Shown here: in pieces, positions 49,674 to 64,000 of the stretch
How the letters are laid out: each line of letters starts with the position of its first letter
Numbering within the stretch: position 1 is the first letter of the stretch
Assembly: GCF_003471165.1 (NCBI RefSeq)
Contig: NZ_QRIL01000003.1
Span: forward strand, 1-64,000
From: Ruminococcus sp. AM22-13
GTDB taxonomy: Bacteria; Bacillota; Clostridia; Lachnospirales; Lachnospiraceae
Length of the DNA: 64,000 nucleotides
Direction of reading: 5' to 3'
Notes under the pieces: model-generated
The model's input: only the letters and a program-made list of their open reading frames with translations
Database searches by the model: none
Told to the model about the DNA's origin: nothing
Program-made: the position numbers and the translations under genes

Positions 49674-50489
49674 ATGCTTACAATAGAAATGGACAATTTT
49701 GATTTGGGTCAGATCTGCAGATCTGGGCAGTGTTTCCGAATGGATCAAATTGGTGATGACCGTTACCGGGTTATTGCGGGAGATAAATATCTGGAACTGA
49801 CACAGGAAAGAGGAATTGTCAATTTCTTCTGTCCGGAAGAGGATTTTATTTTCTTCTGGATCCGGTATTTTGATCTGGATCATGATTATAATGAATACAT
49901 ACAGAAAATCAATCCCAGAGATAAATATCTGACTGCTGCAGGTGAGATGGGAAGCGGAATCCGTATTCTGCAGCAGGATTTGTGGGAGATGATTATATCA
50001 TTCCTGATTTCACAGCAGAATAATATTACAAGAATAAAAAAGTGTATTGAAAATATCAGCCGGGAATTTGGAGAGAAAAAAGAAAGCAGTACAGGTGCAG
50101 AATATTATGCATTTCCAACTGCACAGGCCCTGGCATCTGCAACTGAAGAACAATTGCGGGAGTGTAATCTGGGGTACCGGGCAAAATATGTGCTGGATAC
50201 AGCAAGGAAAGTCTTTTTTGGTGACATATCTTTAGAGAGTATCTATGACATGACATATAAAAATGCACGAAAGGAGCTTCTGAACCTATATGGGGTTGGA
50301 GAGAAAGTAGCAGACTGCATCTGCCTTTTTGGACTGCATCAGCTGGATGCTTTTCCTATCGATACTCACATCCGCCAGGCACTGGATGCTCATTATAAAC
50401 GTGGATTTCCAAATCGACGATATAAAGGTTTCCGAGGCGTGATGCAGCAGTATATATTCTATTATGAACTGACAAACAGCAGCAAATAA
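49674..50489 (+). CDS. 8-oxoguanine DNA glycosylase (Ogg-type)
   Basis: The 271-residue protein is an HhH-GPD glycosylase/AP lyase: N-terminal SGQCFRMDQ, the hairpin LYGVGEKVADCICLFG with catalytic K211, and D230 in DAFPIDTHI. It excises 8-oxoguanine paired with cytosine. It is followed by a small hypothetical gene after 15 bases and is convergent with nth, the other base-excision enzyme here. Confidence 0.9.
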   Translation: MLTIEMDNFDLGQICRSGQCFRMDQIGDDRYRVIAGDKYLELTQERGIVNFFCPEEDFIFFWIRYFDLDHDYNEYIQKINPRDKYLTAAGEMGSGIRILQQDLWEMIISFLISQQNNITRIKKCIENISREFGEKKESSTGAEYYAFPTAQALASATEEQLRECNLGYRAKYVLDTARKVFFGDISLESIYDMTYKNARKELLNLYGVGEKVADCICLFGLHQLDAFPIDTHIRQALDAHYKRGFPNRRYKGFRGVMQQYIFYYELTNSSK

Positions 50490-50903: not shown

Positions 50904-51551
50904 TTACTTTGAATGTTCCAGACCATTCTTTGCACAGATATCGTTAAGGCAGCATTTATCACAATATGGCTTTGTACGTGCTGTACAGACATCACGTCCA
51001 TGATTAACCAGACGATGGCAGAGCTCATTTCCCTCTTCCGGTGGAATGATCTTCCACAAAGCCATTTCTACCTTCTTAGGATCTTTTATACCATCTACCA
51101 GGCCAATACGGTTAGACAGACGGATACAATGTGTATCCGTAACAATCGCAGGTTTGCCAAACACATCTCCCATAATCAGATTCGCACTCTTTCTTCCCAC
51201 ACCAGGAAGCTTCAGCAGAGCATCAAAATCATCAGGAACATTATCATGATACTGTTCATGTAAAACTTTCATACATGCGCTGATATCTCTGGCTTTACTC
51301 TTTCCCAGTCCGCAAGGACGCACGATTGCTTCGATGTCAGCTACGTCGGCGTTTGCAAGAGCCTCTACTGTAGGATATTTTGCATACAGATCCTGCACAA
51401 CCACATTCACCCTCGCATCTGTACACTGTGCAGCCAGACGCACACTTACCAATAATTTCCACGCATTATCATAATCCAGAGTACAATCCGCATCCGGATA
51501 TTCCTTTTTCAATCGCTCAATAACCTCAAGGGCTAATTCCTGTTTTGTCAT
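50904..51551 (-). CDS. nth: Endonuclease III
   Basis: The 215-residue HhH-GPD enzyme removes oxidised pyrimidines and cleaves AP sites. The hairpin LPGVGRKSANLIM holds catalytic K121, and D139 is in VTDTHCIRL. The iron-sulphur cysteines are C189, C197, C200 and C206, a CX7CX2CX5C pattern, one residue longer in the first loop than the classic CX6C form. Nothing else is abnormal. It is convergent with the ogg unit. Confidence 0.93.
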   Translation of the reverse strand: MTKQELALEVIERLKKEYPDADCTLDYDNAWKLLVSVRLAAQCTDARVNVVVQDLYAKYPTVEALANADVADIEAIVRPCGLGKSKARDISACMKVLHEQYHDNVPDDFDALLKLPGVGRKSANLIMGDVFGKPAIVTDTHCIRLSNRIGLVDGIKDPKKVEMALWKIIPPEEGNELCHRLVNHGRDVCTARTKPYCDKCCLNDICAKNGLEHSK

Positions 51552-57235: not shown

Positions 57236-57289
57236 GGAAAGAGTCTCCTTTAGTAAAATGTTTAAATAAAAATAGTATTATGATATTAT

Positions 57290-58396
57290 TTAATGAAAAG
57301 GTATAGTGTCACAATAAAATTCGTAATTTTTATCAATATTCAAATCACAATGTTTAGTGAAACCAATTCCAATGTCGACATTATATTCTGATATTTCATC
57401 AATATCTTTCAGATCTTTTTGTAGACTTTCTATTCTTAAAATTTTTTTTGCCTTATCTTTTATGGCGTATAAATAATCATTTTTTTTAAGTAAACTTCCT
57501 TTATTGTTTATACCAATTATATGGTGATCATATACTTCAATGGGCTTTCCGATAAAATATAATTTCCCATGATTATATTTTGTATTGAATAGGGATAAAA
57601 TCAATATTTCTAATATTGATTTTGATAAATAATGTATATACTCAATATATTCATTATCAATGTCAGAAAAACTTATTCTATTTTCGACCCATCCATGAGC
57701 AACATTGTTTCGTTCATCAACAATTTTTTCTAAAATGTTAAATAATTTTTTTGAATTTCTAGCAACTAAATTGGAATAATTTTCCTTGCTATAGTCATTA
57801 TGTTGCATTTGATAATTTTTAAAAATATAACAATTAGCTATAGATTTTTCAAAATCTGGTATTCCTAAATCATTGGCTAATTCTGAAATTTGTTCAATCT
57901 TAAGATTGCCAGAATGAGAAAGAATAAGTTTTTGATTATTGGTAAAACCTGTTTTAGGATTTTCAAAAGCATAAAAGGCATTTTTTATAGCTTGTACATT
58001 TGTTAAATCATAGTTCTTATATCTTTGGGGATTAGTAAGAAAATCCCCTAGTTTTTTAATGTGTTTTTCTTTTAATTTATCAGGTAGATTATCATATGTA
58101 TCGACTATGCTATAAAGTTCATTGCAATAAGTACTAAAAATATTGTCTATATATTGTTCAAAACATCCATATATGCTTATTATGACTGCATTATATTGAA
58201 TAGGAGAAGCAATTACCTTTTTTATTATGCGGCTATAGTCAATAGTTTTAGGAAAGCTATTTAAAGTTGCTTGGTCGGTAATTTGATTTTCTATCTCACT
58301 AATCATATTTTTTTGTAATTCAATACTTTGTATATATGTTTGGATGTATTCTAATTGTTCTTCTAATTTTTGATATTGTAGTTGTAAGTTTATCAT
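57290..58396 (-). CDS. HEPN-type protein (MAE_28990/MAE_18760-like)
   Basis: The 368-residue protein is mainly helical and carries the HEPN ribonuclease motif RX4H at R229-H234 (ERNNVAHGW). The domain order and its pairing with DUF262 match the MAE_28990/MAE_18760-type HEPN proteins, which are candidate RNases in defence loci. Its ATG overlaps the stop of the DUF262 gene by four bases (ATGA), so the two are made together. Base composition is strongly AT-rich. Whether it is a toxin held in check by DUF262 or an effector after restriction is not known. Confidence 0.72.
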   Translation of the reverse strand: MINLQLQYQKLEEQLEYIQTYIQSIELQKNMISEIENQITDQATLNSFPKTIDYSRIIKKVIASPIQYNAVIISIYGCFEQYIDNIFSTYCNELYSIVDTYDNLPDKLKEKHIKKLGDFLTNPQRYKNYDLTNVQAIKNAFYAFENPKTGFTNNQKLILSHSGNLKIEQISELANDLGIPDFEKSIANCYIFKNYQMQHNDYSKENYSNLVARNSKKLFNILEKIVDERNNVAHGWVENRISFSDIDNEYIEYIHYLSKSILEILILSLFNTKYNHGKLYFIGKPIEVYDHHIIGINNKGSLLKKNDYLYAIKDKAKKILRIESLQKDLKDIDEISEYNVDIGIGFTKHCDLNIDKNYEFYCDTIPFH

Positions 58397-59595
58397 GATT
58401 GTTGAAGGATTATTTCTTTTAAAAGTTCATGAAAAAGTTCAGTTCTATTTTTTATATCTGATTTACCTTGTTTTTTTCCATCAAATGCATCAGAATATTT
58501 ACAATAAAATGATTGCAAGTATTCTATATTATTATCAATATTCATTTGTTGTGGACAAGAATCTAATTGGCTTAAAGCTAACATTAGTGGATCATATATC
58601 ATCTTTTGTGGAGATGTCCATGCATATTTTCCGCGAATAATAGTATATTGGCAAAAGGCTTTTTCTGCAAAGAAATTATCAGCCATTTTAATTGCTTTTT
58701 CGAAAGTGTTTGATAATAATTGGAGCTGTTCAGAAGTATACTGGTTTCCTTGTCGTAAACATAAATCCATAAAAAGAGATAGTTTTCCGCTAAAATTATC
58801 TATGTGGCGCATTGAAAAATAACGCAAAACTAATTCTACATCATACATTCTTTTATATAGCTTGTTTTTTGCATATGCCAAAGCATCATCATAACTTTCT
58901 AAAAATTCATCAGAAACAGATTCTATATCCGGAGTTATGAGCCATAATTTTCTAAAAGAACTATTTTTAGAAAGTGCAAAGCATAAATCATTGAATGGTC
59001 CATCATATAATGCATTTCGTATTTCTTGATCTTCTAGTGTAACTCCGCCAGTATTCAATCTCTCGAAAACCATCTTTTTCATGGTTTCCTCTTGGGCGAG
59101 GTTTTTGCTAGATTCTTTTAAGAGTGTAATAACAGATAATTGGCGTCGATCAATTCCTTCTTTTATTTTTTGAGGTAATTGGCTATATTTTCTTCCGTTC
59201 AATTCTGACCATTCAAGCAATCCTTCAAGTTCATATTTGTCATTATAAAAGTCAATAACTGCAGTAATTCGCTGAAGTCCGTCCATAACTTGATATTGAT
59301 TAAATTCAGTTTCATAAACGAATACAGGGGGAACAGGTACATTCATAATAAAAGACTCAATTAATTTAGAGCGTTTTTGTGAATCCCAAGTAATTCGTCT
59401 TTGATATTTGGGTTTCAGCTGATAATTTGCGGAGTTAAAAACGTCTGTTACAAGGGAAAGCTTAATAGCACCCTGTTCTGTGATGATTCTAGCTTCGCCC
59501 TTTTCATATTTCTCATTAATAGCGTCATCAGATAATTTCATAGAGTTTCCTTTTTGAAAGATTAAAATATTTTTTTCAAAATTAAACAATTCCAT
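58393..59595 (-). CDS. DUF262-domain protein
   Basis: The 400-residue protein has the DUF262 (GmrSD N-terminal type) core: KYQRRITWDSQKRSKLIESF at about 63-82, the DGLQR NTP-binding motif at 105-109 (VMDGLQRITAVIDFY), and FERLNTGGVTLEDQEIRNAL. In GmrSD this ParB/Srx-like domain binds nucleotide and drives cleavage of modified DNA. Here the HNH nuclease partner is replaced by a separate HEPN protein. It starts 30 bases after the R-M fusion gene, with GAGGAG nine bases ahead of the ATG. Confidence 0.85.
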   Translation of the reverse strand: MELFNFEKNILIFQKGNSMKLSDDAINEKYEKGEARIITEQGAIKLSLVTDVFNSANYQLKPKYQRRITWDSQKRSKLIESFIMNVPVPPVFVYETEFNQYQVMDGLQRITAVIDFYNDKYELEGLLEWSELNGRKYSQLPQKIKEGIDRRQLSVITLLKESSKNLAQEETMKKMVFERLNTGGVTLEDQEIRNALYDGPFNDLCFALSKNSSFRKLWLITPDIESVSDEFLESYDDALAYAKNKLYKRMYDVELVLRYFSMRHIDNFSGKLSLFMDLCLRQGNQYTSEQLQLLSNTFEKAIKMADNFFAEKAFCQYTIIRGKYAWTSPQKMIYDPLMLALSQLDSCPQQMNIDNNIEYLQSFYCKYSDAFDGKKQGKSDIKNRTELFHELLKEIILQQS

Positions 59596-59625
59596 TGTTT
59601 TTATCTCCTCATATTTGCCAGTATA

Positions 59626-61740
59626 TTAATTATTCCATGGTAAAATTGTACCCATAACTTTTCTTGGTTGAGCCTTTATTTGAACATCAAATTTAAGCGA
59701 TGTTTTACTTATTTTGGAGTCAGCATTATGTAGTCTCATTGATATAATCCACTGATCAAAATAAATTTCAATAGTGGTTTTGCTTTTTGGCTTTATACGT
59801 ACTTCTACGATTTCTTCAGGCATTGTAATGGTTTGGACAGCGCGGGTATTTTTTATACCATTATATGAAGACATGAGTAAACCATGCATATTATATGGAT
59901 AAACTTTTGTAGATCTTGAGTGATCTTCTTTTATTATTTTGTAAAAATCTTGTATACCAAACATATATTCAAAGAAAGCCTGTGTAAATTCTTTGGCATT
60001 TGCTTGTTCTTCTAAAGTTGAATTTTCATCAGCAATACCAAGTCGTTTAATTTCTGCTACAAATAATTTGATGATTGGATAATAGATGGTGTCCATCTTA
60101 TCTTCTACATCTGCCCATCTTTGATATTGTTTTGCATACGTATCTATTTTTTTGAAAATTTCATTTATATTTTTTATAAAGGAGTTACTGCATGAAAACT
60201 GTCCATTTGTCCATACTTTTGCAAAATCAGGATCTTCGGTTATTCTTGGATGTTTTACAGCTTCATGATTATTTTTGCAACTGATGCCTATACTTGTGAT
60301 TGAATCAAGAGATTCCGGTTCACTATAAATTTCTAGATTAATATCTCGTACATCGCCTTTAGTTCCTGCATTATCAGGCATAACTCGCAAAAAACCGTAA
60401 AGATTTTCACTTGATGATAAGATGGGTTCAACATTTCTTAAATAAACGGCAGCAACCCTTGCAGCGCGGTTATAATCATTTGTCATTGTTTCTAAGCGTA
60501 TAGTTTCTAACTGGGCATTATCATCTAAGTCTTCATCTGAACCTCGGATAATTTGGTAGGCATTTTCAACATTTTTATAATTTTTATCTTTTATAATTTT
60601 TAATGAGTCCGTATTCCAGCCATTCAGAGTTAATTCCCTGTATATTTCAATTAAAGTTGCATATTCAAAAGCTTTTCCGCTTAAAACAGTATTAGTTAGT
60701 CGTTTATCTGCTGTTGGTCCATAAATTTCAGCTTCTGGATTTTCGATATTTAAAAAAGGTGTTAAATCATCAGAAGTTAAAATCTTTTTAACTTCATGGG
60801 CGATTGATTCAGCAAGTTTCACAGGAACTGCATTCCCAATTTGGCGATATTTACTATCTAAATCTCCACAGAATTCTAATTCTGGAGGGAAAGTTTGAAT
60901 TGCTGCAGCCTCTTTATAACTTAAACGTCTATATTTTCCGATAAAACGAAACTTATCTACATCTTCAAACTCCATACCATCGGAGTCTGGACTTAAAGGT
61001 ACCTGCTTAGCCATAGCAGGAATAGTAAAGGATACTTCATCAAAATTTCGTTGTCTATTCCTAGACATGTATCGAGATGAAAATGCAGCTTGACATACAT
61101 CGCTCATATCTACAGGTGGTAAATCTTTTAGTGCATCTTTAAGGGTCACGATTTTAGGATCTCCAGATGGGAAAATATATGCGCCGCCATGACAAATTTC
61201 GTTTTTTATGCCTATAAAAATAACTCGCATCCTATCTTGTGGTACACCATAATTTTTTGCATTGACAGTTGGAGCGGACATAGTATATCCTAATTCTGAA
61301 AAATCTTCTATGATTTTATCGAATACTGCACCATTTCCTAAAGTTTTAATTCCGATAACATTCTCAGCAACAATAACTTTTGGTTTTTTTATTCTTACCA
61401 TTTCTACAAAATGTCTGTATAAAACATTTCGAGAGTCATCTACTTGTCGAGGACCAGCGAGAGAGAAGCCTTGACATGGAAATCCACCTAATACTACATC
61501 TGTACTTACACCCGGAAGCACATTTTCTAAATCTAATTTAGAAACATCACCACATTCAATAATTGTGCAATTTTCAGGTGATTTTCTACTCCCATCAGAA
61601 TTAAAATTAGCCCATTTATCATACGTGTCACAGGCATCGTTGGAAAAATCGTTTGCCCAAAGTATTTTGAATCCTTTATTATGGAAGCCCATGTCTAGAC
61701 CACCAGCACCAGAAAACATAGATATAACTGTAAAACTCAT
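59626..61740 (-). CDS. Fused cytosine-5 DNA methyltransferase and HaeIII-like restriction endonuclease
   Basis: One 704-residue chain. Residues 1-322 are a cytosine-5 methyltransferase: motif I FSGAGGLDMGF, catalytic C89 in GGFPCQGFS, ENV at 126-128, QDRMR at 168-172, a short recognition domain (about 185-268), RRLSYKEAAAIQTFP at 271-285 and QIGNAVP at 300-306. Residues 355-704 resemble HaeIII-type nucleases: GKAFEYA at the start, GDVRDINLEI with D463/D466, and IGISCKNNHEAVKHPRI with K489, a PD-(D/E)XK-like site. GGCC specificity is a guess from that family. ATG 61740 is set by GGAAGGTGG; the longer frame from 61776 lacks a signal. Confidence 0.78.
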   Translation of the reverse strand: MSFTVISMFSGAGGLDMGFHNKGFKILWANDFSNDACDTYDKWANFNSDGSRKSPENCTIIECGDVSKLDLENVLPGVSTDVVLGGFPCQGFSLAGPRQVDDSRNVLYRHFVEMVRIKKPKVIVAENVIGIKTLGNGAVFDKIIEDFSELGYTMSAPTVNAKNYGVPQDRMRVIFIGIKNEICHGGAYIFPSGDPKIVTLKDALKDLPPVDMSDVCQAAFSSRYMSRNRQRNFDEVSFTIPAMAKQVPLSPDSDGMEFEDVDKFRFIGKYRRLSYKEAAAIQTFPPELEFCGDLDSKYRQIGNAVPVKLAESIAHEVKKILTSDDLTPFLNIENPEAEIYGPTADKRLTNTVLSGKAFEYATLIEIYRELTLNGWNTDSLKIIKDKNYKNVENAYQIIRGSDEDLDDNAQLETIRLETMTNDYNRAARVAAVYLRNVEPILSSSENLYGFLRVMPDNAGTKGDVRDINLEIYSEPESLDSITSIGISCKNNHEAVKHPRITEDPDFAKVWTNGQFSCSNSFIKNINEIFKKIDTYAKQYQRWADVEDKMDTIYYPIIKLFVAEIKRLGIADENSTLEEQANAKEFTQAFFEYMFGIQDFYKIIKEDHSRSTKVYPYNMHGLLMSSYNGIKNTRAVQTITMPEEIVEVRIKPKSKTTIEIYFDQWIISMRLHNADSKISKTSLKFDVQIKAQPRKVMGTILPWNN

Positions 61741-61791
61741 TTTAGTGTCCACCTTCCTGTGGTTCCCTTGAACCATTCGATAATTTTTTTA

Positions 61792-62202
61792 TTAAATAGC
61801 TTGTTTTCCTACCAATATTTTAATTGAAATATTAGAAAACTTTTTTATGAAGATATCTTTTATTAAATATGCATCGCCGTAGTTTAATTTAGGAAAATAA
61901 TAAAGTTTTTGTTTAGCTAATATTGCAACGATGCCGCAATGCTTATGTTTTTGTTCTAAGAACCAAAGATTATTTAAGAGCATATCAAGATTTTTATGAT
62001 ATATATCAAAGATAATAAGTTTGTTATTTTGCATTAATTTGAGGTTTTTCTCTGTTTCATTTATATTCCAAGTGTATTTCGTTAAATATTTTTTTGAATT
62101 GAATATATGAGTTGTAAAAAAGTTATCATGCATATCATCGTAAGTATACATAAAATTGAGAGAGTTGTTTTGTTGCTTTTGCATAAATAACATATCTACC
62201 AT
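61792..62202 (-). CDS. Unknown 136-residue protein, first gene of the defence operon
   Basis: I do not recognise this protein. It is rich in Asn, Lys, Phe and Tyr, with alternating strand- and helix-like stretches (NKLIIFDIYHKNLDMLLNNL, HCGIVAILAKQKLYYFPKL) that could form a small alpha/beta fold. No HTH, nuclease or membrane signature is visible. AAAGGAGG seven bases before the ATG is the strongest ribosome binding site in the operon, and the SOS-type promoter lies directly upstream, so it is real and expressed first. It may be a regulator or accessory of the R-M fusion, 51 bases on. Confidence 0.6.
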   Translation of the reverse strand: MVDMLFMQKQQNNSLNFMYTYDDMHDNFFTTHIFNSKKYLTKYTWNINETEKNLKLMQNNKLIIFDIYHKNLDMLLNNLWFLEQKHKHCGIVAILAKQKLYYFPKLNYGDAYLIKDIFIKKFSNISIKILVGKQAI

Positions 62203-62515
62203 TATAAAATCCTCCTTTGGTTATACTCTATAATTTATATTATAGAACAAATGTTCTAATAAATCAATAGAACATTTTGGAGAAAATTGTATTATTAAAA
62301 ATTTAAAATGTCTAATCTAGTTTAAACGACAGCATTATAGAAATCAAGAATTATATTGTACAAAAAAACTTTCGAAAAAATTACCAAATATTAAGATAAC
62401 CTTGTTCATCCTGTAAGGTTACAATCTTATGATAGCCTCAGATGAAAAAGTTAAGTCAAAAATAAAGCCAACCTAAAACCTAAAAAAGCACAAAAGAAAT
62501 AAGGAGGACAAGCAA
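62203..62515. other. Divergent region between defence operon and cit genes
   Basis: This 313-base interval holds the SOS-type promoter (62239-62267) and, nearer citD, a TAACCTT/AAGGTTA hairpin (about 62398-62422). The citD promoter could not be picked out with confidence. Confidence 0.6.
62239..62267 (-). promoter_or_regulatory. Promoter with SOS (LexA-type) box in the spacer
   Basis: On the minus strand TTGATT (62262-62267) and TATAAT (62239-62244) are exactly 17 bp apart. The spacer contains GAACATTTGTTC (62245-62256), a perfect palindrome of the GAAC-N4-GTTC form bound by Firmicute LexA. A second half site, TGTTCT, lies just upstream of the -35. Repression by LexA, or by another dimeric repressor with the same site, is expected. 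Confidence 0.72.
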
Positions 62516-62815
62516 ATGGAAATCACAAGACCTGCTGTAGCAGGAACTCTGGAATCCAGTGACTGTTAGGTAATGATCGAAGAAGGAGACGGCAAAGTCG
62601 AATTTTCACTGGAAAGTTCTGTGATTAGTCAGTATGGAAATCAGATCAGAAAGGTAGCACTGGAAACCCTGAACAACCTGGGCGTAAATAATGCGAAAGT
62701 AACAATGATTGACAAAGGTGCGCTGGACTGCACCATCAAAGCAAGAATTGAAGCTGCTGTTTACCGTTCTGTTTTACAGACAGAAGATTTACCATGGGGA
62801 GGTGCTATCCGATGA
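62516..62815 (+). pseudogene. citD: Citrate lyase acyl carrier protein with in-frame amber codon
   Basis: From ATG 62516, behind AAGGAGG, the frame encodes a clear CitD: MEITRPAVAGTLESSDC with the prosthetic-group serine at position 14, then KVEFSLESSVISQYGNQIRK, NNAKVTMIDKGALDCTIKAR. A TAG at codon 18 (62567-62569) splits it three residues after the SS pair. Codons on both sides keep family similarity, so the stop is a recent point change, a sequencing error or is read through. Re-initiation at ATG 62573 would lose the modified serine. It overlaps citE by four bases. Confidence 0.8.
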
Positions 62816-64000
62816 GTAATCCAAACAAAAAAAGATTAAGAAGAACCATGATGTTCCTGAACGCACAGAAACCGGGTCTGATTAAAGATCCTTATATTTA
62901 TAAACCGGATTCTATTATGCTGGATCTGGAAGATGCAGTTGTCGAGAACCAGAAAGATGCAGCAAGATTTTCCTTGTTTCATGTATTAAGAACAATCAAT
63001 TACAGAGGATGCGAACGAGTAGTCAGAATCAATGGTCTGGGTTCCTCTTACTGGAAAGAAGATATCCGCTGTGCAGTTGCAGGTGGCTGTGATTCCATTC
63101 GTATCCTGAAAACAGAGAGCGCTAAAGACGTTTATATTGTAGAGAAAGAAGTAATCCAGGCAGAAAAAGATTTCGGACGTCCGGAAGGAAGTGTCCTGAT
63201 CATGGCTGCTATCGAATCTGCAAGAGGTGTTATGAGGGCTCTGGATATCTGTGAAGCATCTGAGAGACTTTTCGGTATCGCACTTTCCGGTGGTGATTAT
63301 ACAAAAGACCTTCAGACACATATTACAGGTACAGGTCTGGAGCTGATGGGTGCAAGACAGAACCTTGTTATTGCAGCAAGAGCTGCAACATTCCTGATCA
63401 CAGTACCGGAAATGCTCCCTGTTTATAAGAAACTGAAGATCAGACCGACAACATTTCTTCTGATCTGTGTAACATCCATGGGTGTTATAAACCTTCTTCC
63501 ATGGGGTGATCCGACCATGAGAGCTGCAACAGTTCTTGGAATTGAACCAAACCAGCTCTGGCTTCAGATTCTGCCAATGCAGGTTGTAGGCATCATCATT
63601 GCACTGGCAACAGCAGTGTTCTGGGGAATTGTAGAGAAGAAACGTGGAGCAGGAGCTGTAACAGATGTAGAAATCACAGCAGGTGGAAACGTAGAAGAGC
63701 AGACAGAGGCAAGAGAATATGCAAGACCAAAACTATTCTGGTTTAACCTTATTCTTACACTTGCAGTGATCGTATGCCTGATTTTTGTGAAAGTGCCATC
63801 TCACTATGTATTCATGCTTGGATGTGCCATTGCCTTACTGGTGAACTTCCGGGGAGCATCCTTACAGAATAAAATCATCAAATCCCATGCAGGTCCGGCC
63901 ATCATGATGTCCTCAACAATCCTCTGCGCAGGTGTATTCCTCGGAGTAATGGAGAAAACCGGAATCATGAACAATATGGCAACTGTACTTGCCGGATTTG
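62812..64000 (+). pseudogene. citE: CitE (citryl-CoA lyase) N-terminal part fused to a citrate transporter, runs off the window
   Basis: An open frame from ATG 62812 to the window end begins as citrate lyase beta subunit: RRTMMFLNAQKPGLIKDP, DSIMLDLEDAVVENQKDAAR, VRINGLGSSYWKEDI, AAIESARGVMRAL and ALSGGDYTKDL. At about residue 192 (63386) CitE stops after NLVIAARAA and the sequence continues as the second half of a CitMHS-type citrate transporter: TFLITVPEMLPVYKKLKIRP, SMGVINLLPWGDPTMRAA and several TM helices. About 100 residues of CitE and the first half of the transporter are absent. A deletion joining two neighbouring genes in frame is the simplest reading. Confidence 0.75.

Follow-up and report, generated by a model that had tools for sequence, protein, structure and literature searches.

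A candidate two-layer anti-phage operon in Ruminococcus sp. AM22-13: a fused HaeIII-type enzyme and a DUF262-HEPN pair behind a promoter with a LexA-type box

Described relatives and the four-gene operon

HEPN ribonucleases (RNases) encoded beside restriction-modification (R-M) genes have been proposed as a suicide back-up that is set free if R-M is neutralised or the cell meets genotoxic stress, and a table in the same paper places the MAE_28990 HEPN genes 'in operon with a ParB nuclease and DNA methylase genes' (PMC3710099; Anantharaman et al. 2013). The pairing of DUF262 with HEPN is also on record: a 2023 review enters the tested system PD-T4-2 under both DUF262 and the PF18735 HEPN family (PMC10952713), and deletion of PD-T4-2 raised T4 plaquing in the native strain (PMC9519451; Vassallo et al. 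2022). Described here is a four-gene operon of Ruminococcus sp. AM22-13 (Lachnospiraceae; assembly GCF_003471165.1), which lies in the first 64,000 nucleotides of contig NZ_QRIL01000003.1—a stretch hereafter called the window. The operon encodes a leader protein (open reading frame 1, ORF1), a C5-cytosine methyltransferase fused to a HaeIII-type endonuclease (M-R), a DUF262 protein, and a HEPN protein, and its promoter contains a LexA-type (SOS) box. With a probability of roughly 60%, it is a horizontally acquired, LexA-controlled two-layer anti-phage operon, in which the R-M enzyme would form the first layer and the DUF262-HEPN pair the second.

The ORF list of the window places the four co-directional genes on the minus strand within 62202–57290. 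With the M-R start taken at 61740, the intergenic gaps in operon order are 51, 30, and −4 bases, the last being an overlap shared by the DUF262 and HEPN genes. In 1-kb windows, the G+C fraction is 0.25–0.34 over the operon and 0.36–0.45 outside it, making the operon AT-richer than both flanks. A preliminary description, made from the sequence alone, had already given this spacing, base composition, and set of domain labels (C5 methylase, HaeIII-type nuclease, DUF262, HEPN); the ORF coordinates, the 1-kb windows, and Pfam bear them out, with ORF1 alone lacking a match.

A profile search of genome contigs with the HEPN alignment returned four loci. Locus L001 (with its near-copy L002) and locus L003, from Lachnospiraceae metagenome-assembled genomes, carry an ORF1-like gene, fused M-R, DUF262, and HEPN in the same order as the window but between different flanks, the L003 HEPN gene running off the contig end. 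The earlier supposition that the four genes co-occur in other genomes is thereby borne out. Identity to these two loci is 80%–84% for the methylase, 64%–68% for the nuclease, 68%–69% for DUF262, and 44%–45% for HEPN. ORF1 (61792–62202, minus strand; 136 amino acids) has counterparts in the same position in both loci that align at only 22%–23% identity; on these comparisons, ORF1 and HEPN diverge far faster than the methylase. This fast-evolving leader protein has no match in Pfam, PADLOC, NCBIfam, or PHROGs. Its model (mean predicted local distance difference test score, pLDDT, 68.6) suggests an alpha/beta fold from residue 28, and it is a candidate regulator or inhibitor.

The window holds the three parts of the MAE_28990 operons—a HEPN gene of the same family, a ParB-fold gene ('ParB (DUF262)' in that work), and a DNA methylase gene—and shares with them the idea of a suicide back-up; a fused HaeIII-type nuclease, a counterpart of ORF1, an SOS promoter, and an EF-Tu-like barrel are absent from the passages of PMC3710099 drawn on here. 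As in PD-T4-2, DUF262 is joined to HEPN, and the window DUF262 protein matches the PADLOC model PD-T4-2_A (1.2e-35); it is, however, closer to NsnA (6e-63, residues 24–396), and the window pair stands with R-M and ORF1 in one operon. Among the HEPN proteins compared with PADLOC, none hit a PD-T4-2 partner model, if that database has one. NsnA (PADLOC-DB 2.0.0) is the top defence-database match of the window DUF262 protein, and no published definition of it was found in the literature searched.

The suggestion that the set may be undescribed is not supported as it stands. The HEPN, ParB-fold, and methylase operon, with its suicide role, appears in PMC3710099, and PD-T4-2 appears in PMC10952713; both the DUF262-HEPN pair and the three-part operon are already known. 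Most of the parts and their pairing are thus known. In the literature searched, which was mainly open-access, no report was found of the four-gene set, of its SOS control through a LexA-type box within the promoter, of the fusion of HaeIII-type enzymes, or of a C-terminal HEPN barrel modelled as EF-Tu domain II.

The DUF262-HEPN pair

The DUF262 protein (58393–59595, minus strand; 400 amino acids) matches PF03235 (GmrSD_N, ParB-like fold) at 9.5e-26, and its DGLQR nucleotide motif, D105–R109, is intact and invariant in 21 sequences. Relatives of DUF262 are numerous, with 4,419 proteins matched. The HEPN protein (57290–58396, minus strand; 368 amino acids) matches PF18735 (8.2e-12) and PF18737 (9.1e-10). 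Its model (pLDDT 92.3) consists of a helical HEPN domain followed by a C-terminal beta-barrel. The RxxxxH motif reads RNNVAH, with the R and H invariant in 28 sequences (R228 and H233 in a 367-residue fragment; add one for the full protein). Thus, the window has both marks of the module: DGxQR in DUF262 and a gene for an RxxxxH HEPN protein directly downstream.

This arrangement recurs in 19 loci opened across genomes, plasmids, phages, and viral contigs: the HEPN gene directly follows DUF262 in all 19, with a gap of −50 to +20, and RxxxxH is present in 18, the exception (L013) having a split HEPN frame; the neighbouring HEPN proteins of L043 and L046 score under the Pfam cut-off. The loci were reached through the HEPN sequence (L001, L003, L004), the HEPN family (L030–L032), or, for the rest, DUF262. 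Left out of the 19 are L002, L033 (a HEPN-family match with a broken frame and no DUF262 seen), G202 (a weak partial match) and L048 (a 25% match), both unopened, the phage matches H23, H24, H26, and H28 (near-copies or second records), and H29–H36 with two unlisted rows, all weaker and unopened. DUF262 and HEPN distances correlate across the set (Mantel r 0.75, n = 19, 0 of 2000 permutations). In the reverse direction, PF18737 matches occur in 5 of 391 genomes of the class, and DUF262 adjoins in three (G258, G339, G389). The DUF262-HEPN pair is the stable core unit.

Such pairs lie on plasmids, phages, and viral contigs, among them a Klebsiella plasmid and P2-like phages. On the Shewanella plasmid pS19502 (L012, 5491–9274), an integron integrase gene and the start of the pair are about 490 bp apart. 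A mobilizable Tabrizicola plasmid of 8,217 bp (L014) has methylase, DUF262, and HEPN as its main cargo, and these three genes recur together in an IMG/VR contig (L045).

The DUF262 domain and its DGxQR motif are shared with the type IV enzymes GmrSD and BrxU, and the pair might accordingly be a modification-dependent system of that kind, with HEPN in place of the HNH nuclease and DUF262 reading modified phage DNA. Precedents are at hand: modified cytosine is the target of GmrSD and BrxU, SspE responds to phosphorothioate, and Dazbog has a DUF262 that probably recognises methylated DNA (PMC10952713). The window differs from GmrSD and BrxU, however, in having a HEPN protein rather than a DUF1524 nuclease, since a Pfam search of all four proteins with E values allowed up to 1 gave no DUF1524 HNH domain. 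Moreover, the cell's own 5-methylcytosine would have to be tolerated in the window. A modification-dependent role is unlikely.

The fused enzyme and its association with the pair

The M-R frame spans 61776–59626 (716 amino acids), and an ATG at 61740, following an AGGAAGG Shine-Dalgarno sequence, is its likely start, giving a protein of 704 amino acids (59626–61740, minus strand). A single chain contains a complete PF00145 domain (1.2e-63) and a nearly complete PF09556 domain (4e-55; positions 1–296 of 298). The best solved relative is M.HaeIII (8.5e-43), with which the methylase aligns over residues 17–332; the PCQ and ENV motifs and the MSRNR stretch are retained. So too are all nuclease residues invariant across ten other sequences, in an alignment that omits L042, a weak match. 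The enzyme is predicted to act at GGCC. Both domains are of the HaeIII kind, with the methylase complete and the nuclease residues intact, but HaeIII systems have separate M and R genes, whereas the window has one ORF; the enzyme is therefore a fused variant of HaeIII type II R-M, and DUF262-HEPN follows it. Fused derivatives have been considered possible for head-to-tail systems, HaeIII among them, and another R-M pair has been fused artificially (PMC3039593); a literature search gave no report of a natural HaeIII-type M-R fusion.

RE_HaeIII matches occur in 11 of the 391 genomes, nine of them above the cut-off. In these nine, M and R are separate ORFs, and neither DUF262 nor HEPN was seen within the 5–17 kb stretch read. 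Three of five viral HaeIII-type loci have separate M and R and lack the pair, the other two having M only, and two plasmid records that span both HaeIII-type parts are annotated with separate genes. The three known fused M-R loci (the window, L001, L003) all have DUF262-HEPN in the same place; however, L001 and L003 were found through HEPN, and therefore fused enzymes lacking the pair could have been missed.

A methylase lies directly upstream of the pair in 5 of the 19 loci (L001, L003, L014, L032, L045), as well as in the window. These methylases are of three kinds: the C5-HaeIII fusion, an N4/N6-type enzyme (L014, L045), and a plain C5 enzyme (L032, which additionally has type I R, M, and S genes). 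Mapped on the DUF262 tree, the upstream-methylase label requires three changes, a number as low as which arose in 6 of 500 shuffles, with long branches leaving the deep forks unsure. Because methylases of three kinds sit on separate branches, the restriction enzyme appears to be an addition to the pair, and the two layers do not have to form a single machine.

Three results weigh against the two-layer reading: no methylase lies directly upstream of the pair in the remaining 14 loci, none of the 12 unfused M and R loci has the pair in the stretch read, and the HEPN protein has no PADLOC match. From the first two it follows that the layers can work apart. They may even be two independent modules co-transcribed by chance: a type II R-M of the usual sort beside an abortive DUF262-HEPN module that works on its own. 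Genome G258, in which unfused HaeIII-type M and R and a DUF262-HEPN pair lie on different contigs, agrees with this account. Chance co-transcription fits less well with the constant partnering of the fused enzymes, the repeated arrival of methylases of three kinds at the same upstream position, and the single SOS-type promoter ahead of all four genes, and it is judged somewhat improbable.

The same recurrent joining to methylases of unrelated type would also be expected if DUF262-HEPN were a guard—post-segregational or anti-anti-restriction—that would kill the cell once the resident methylase or nuclease is gone or inhibited, as PrrC does with PrrI. A role of this kind was proposed for HEPN-R-M operons in PMC3710099. 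Elsewhere in the stretch read, five of the 14 loci have a restriction or methylase gene: a C5 methylase in L004 and another in L055, HsdR in L043, Mrr in L046, and a YhcG nuclease in L030, in a scan that did not take in every neighbour. The first four of these are in keeping with a guard, but the pairs of L012, L029, L044, L047, and L054 have no restriction gene seen beside them, again with not every neighbour scanned, and a guard function is unlikely. In L004 (Clostridium vincentii), the C5 methylase lies 1.4 kb downstream of the pair, past an opposite-strand ORF. In L030 (6648–7766, genome G389), the YhcG-type PDDEXK nuclease gene (PF06250 and DUF1016_N) lies 183 bp upstream of the pair.

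The two-layer reading thus retains only part of the earlier proposal that R-M, DUF262, and HEPN cooperate as one system. The back-up idea has precedent and the four genes do recur; the core, however, is the DUF262-HEPN pair, to which R-M is an add-on.

Control, origin, and proposed action

Ahead of ORF1 lies the minus-strand promoter TTGATT–17 bp–TATAAT (62239–62267), with 10 of 12 matches in a promoter scan. Its spacer contains GAACATTTGTTC, and the LexA-type box AGAACAAATGTTCT occupies 62244–62257, overlapping the promoter as in the LexA (SOS) regulon. The box is credible because of four observations taken together: its position inside the promoter; an identical 14-mer about 250 bp upstream of uvrB in G001, the nearest relative genome compared; LexA-type boxes CGAACATAGGTTTG, CGAACATAGGTTCG, and CGAACAAAGGTTCG at recA of three kin genomes; and L003, in which a TTGACA-17-TATAAT promoter holds GAACGTGTGTTC at the same place, a perfect box with the same geometry as the window. 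The G001 gene is taken to be uvrB from its N-terminal sequence, not by a family call.

The motif alone is not significant, with one perfect copy in 64 kb, 0.60 expected, and at least one in 48 of 100 shuffles. Nor is the promoter scan itself significant, with 44 promoters found in the window versus 34.3 expected. Other results speak against LexA control. Leaving L003 aside, the 18 operons have upstream boxes that reach at best 5/8 (10 loci), 6/8 (7 loci), or 7/8 (1 locus), and never 8; L001, with all four genes, reaches only 6/8. In eight kin genomes, AGAACNNNNGTTCT is not enriched (2–6 copies per genome versus 4–12 for the reversed control). GAACNNNNGTTC is absent at the lexA loci of three kin genomes, among which that of G001 is a partial match with stops, and one lexA upstream region gives a best match of 8/10. 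The SOS-type promoter of the preliminary description has comparative support from uvrB, kin recA, and L003, but none from motif and scan statistics.

Two unfused HaeIII-type loci of different families, L039 (8930) and L040 (8452), also have a perfect LexA-type box. There it lies immediately downstream of a TTGACA-TATCCT promoter and directly ahead of a further C5-methylase-like gene (labelled from its opening sequence) that follows M and R; such a box is carried by 2 of the 9 unfused loci. Damage-linked control of the HaeIII-type enzyme family may therefore recur.

Comparison with G001, which shares 22% of the window's sampled words, delimits an inserted segment: the left flank aligns to window position 57283 and the right resumes at 62386, with 5,102 bp (57284–62385) in the window versus 93 bp in G001. 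No integrase or transposase was seen among the ORFs of the segment. The insertion, like the plasmid and phage settings of other pairs, would fit acquisition of the operon by horizontal transfer.

Beside the operon, a gene that is presumably citD-like (62516–62815) has an in-frame stop at codon 18, the G001 copy being uninterrupted. One frame at 62794–63999 begins with a domain of the citrate lyase beta subunit (HpcH_HpaI, residues 17–200) and continues into the later part of a CitMHS transporter (197–400). These regions are in separate ORFs in G001, and thus the window citrate operon looks eroded or rearranged, or misassembled. Elsewhere in the window, two base-excision DNA glycosylase genes (49674–50489, OGG_N/HhH-GPD; 50904–51551, HhH-GPD) lie convergent and near each other.

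Under the two-layer reading, a type II R-M enzyme with methylase and nuclease in one chain would act at GGCC, while a PD-T4-2-like DUF262 protein would bind nucleotide, sense an infection cue, and hold or release the HEPN RNase, which once released would cut RNA and stop the cell. DNA damage, from phage or from restriction itself, would relieve LexA binding and raise all four proteins together, protecting against phage. Tight LexA repression would keep the methylase low too, so that upon induction the nuclease would meet unmethylated sites. With M and R fused, their activities would stay equal, yet the cell would still need basal methylation.

The C-terminal barrel of HEPN (57302–57565, minus strand; residues 278–365) models as an EF-Tu domain II (GTP_EFTU_D2) fold, and on the model it has the barrel of translation-factor domain II; no Pfam match was obtained for it. 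The hhalign comparison with domain II, which used 21 of the 24 loci of the first cut (L105, L108, and L118 being dropped for a contig edge or wrong strand), gave a probability of 6.5% and a score of 18.8, versus 7.0–17.2 with ten control slices and a maximum of 11.8 among 20 shuffles. Counting against homology, two control slices scored 21.8 and 22.1 versus 15.6 for the barrel with a four-row U32 C-terminal set (its L134 row probably read on the wrong strand), and Foldseek whole-chain template-modelling scores were only about 0.2. A 'novel beta rich domain' has been reported fused to the related MAE_18760 group (PMC3710099).

Speculatively, and with low probability, the barrel might dock HEPN on aminoacyl-transfer RNA (tRNA) or the translation machinery, with HEPN cleaving tRNA on release by DUF262, giving a two-stage defence gated by damage in place of an R-M that is always on. 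Because the restriction enzyme would be SOS-controlled and is fused to its methylase, damage would then take the cell out of a state of low restriction and into restriction combined with arrest of translation. If the RNase does carry a translation-factor barrel, this would point to its substrate.

An SOS-controlled type II R-M raises the question of how the cell avoids cutting itself upon induction. Suicide back-up by HEPN beside R-M has long been suspected, from gene order. By placing restriction together with a DUF262 sensor and a HEPN RNase under a single promoter of the DNA-damage type, the compact insert of Ruminococcus sp. AM22-13 would make that idea directly testable.

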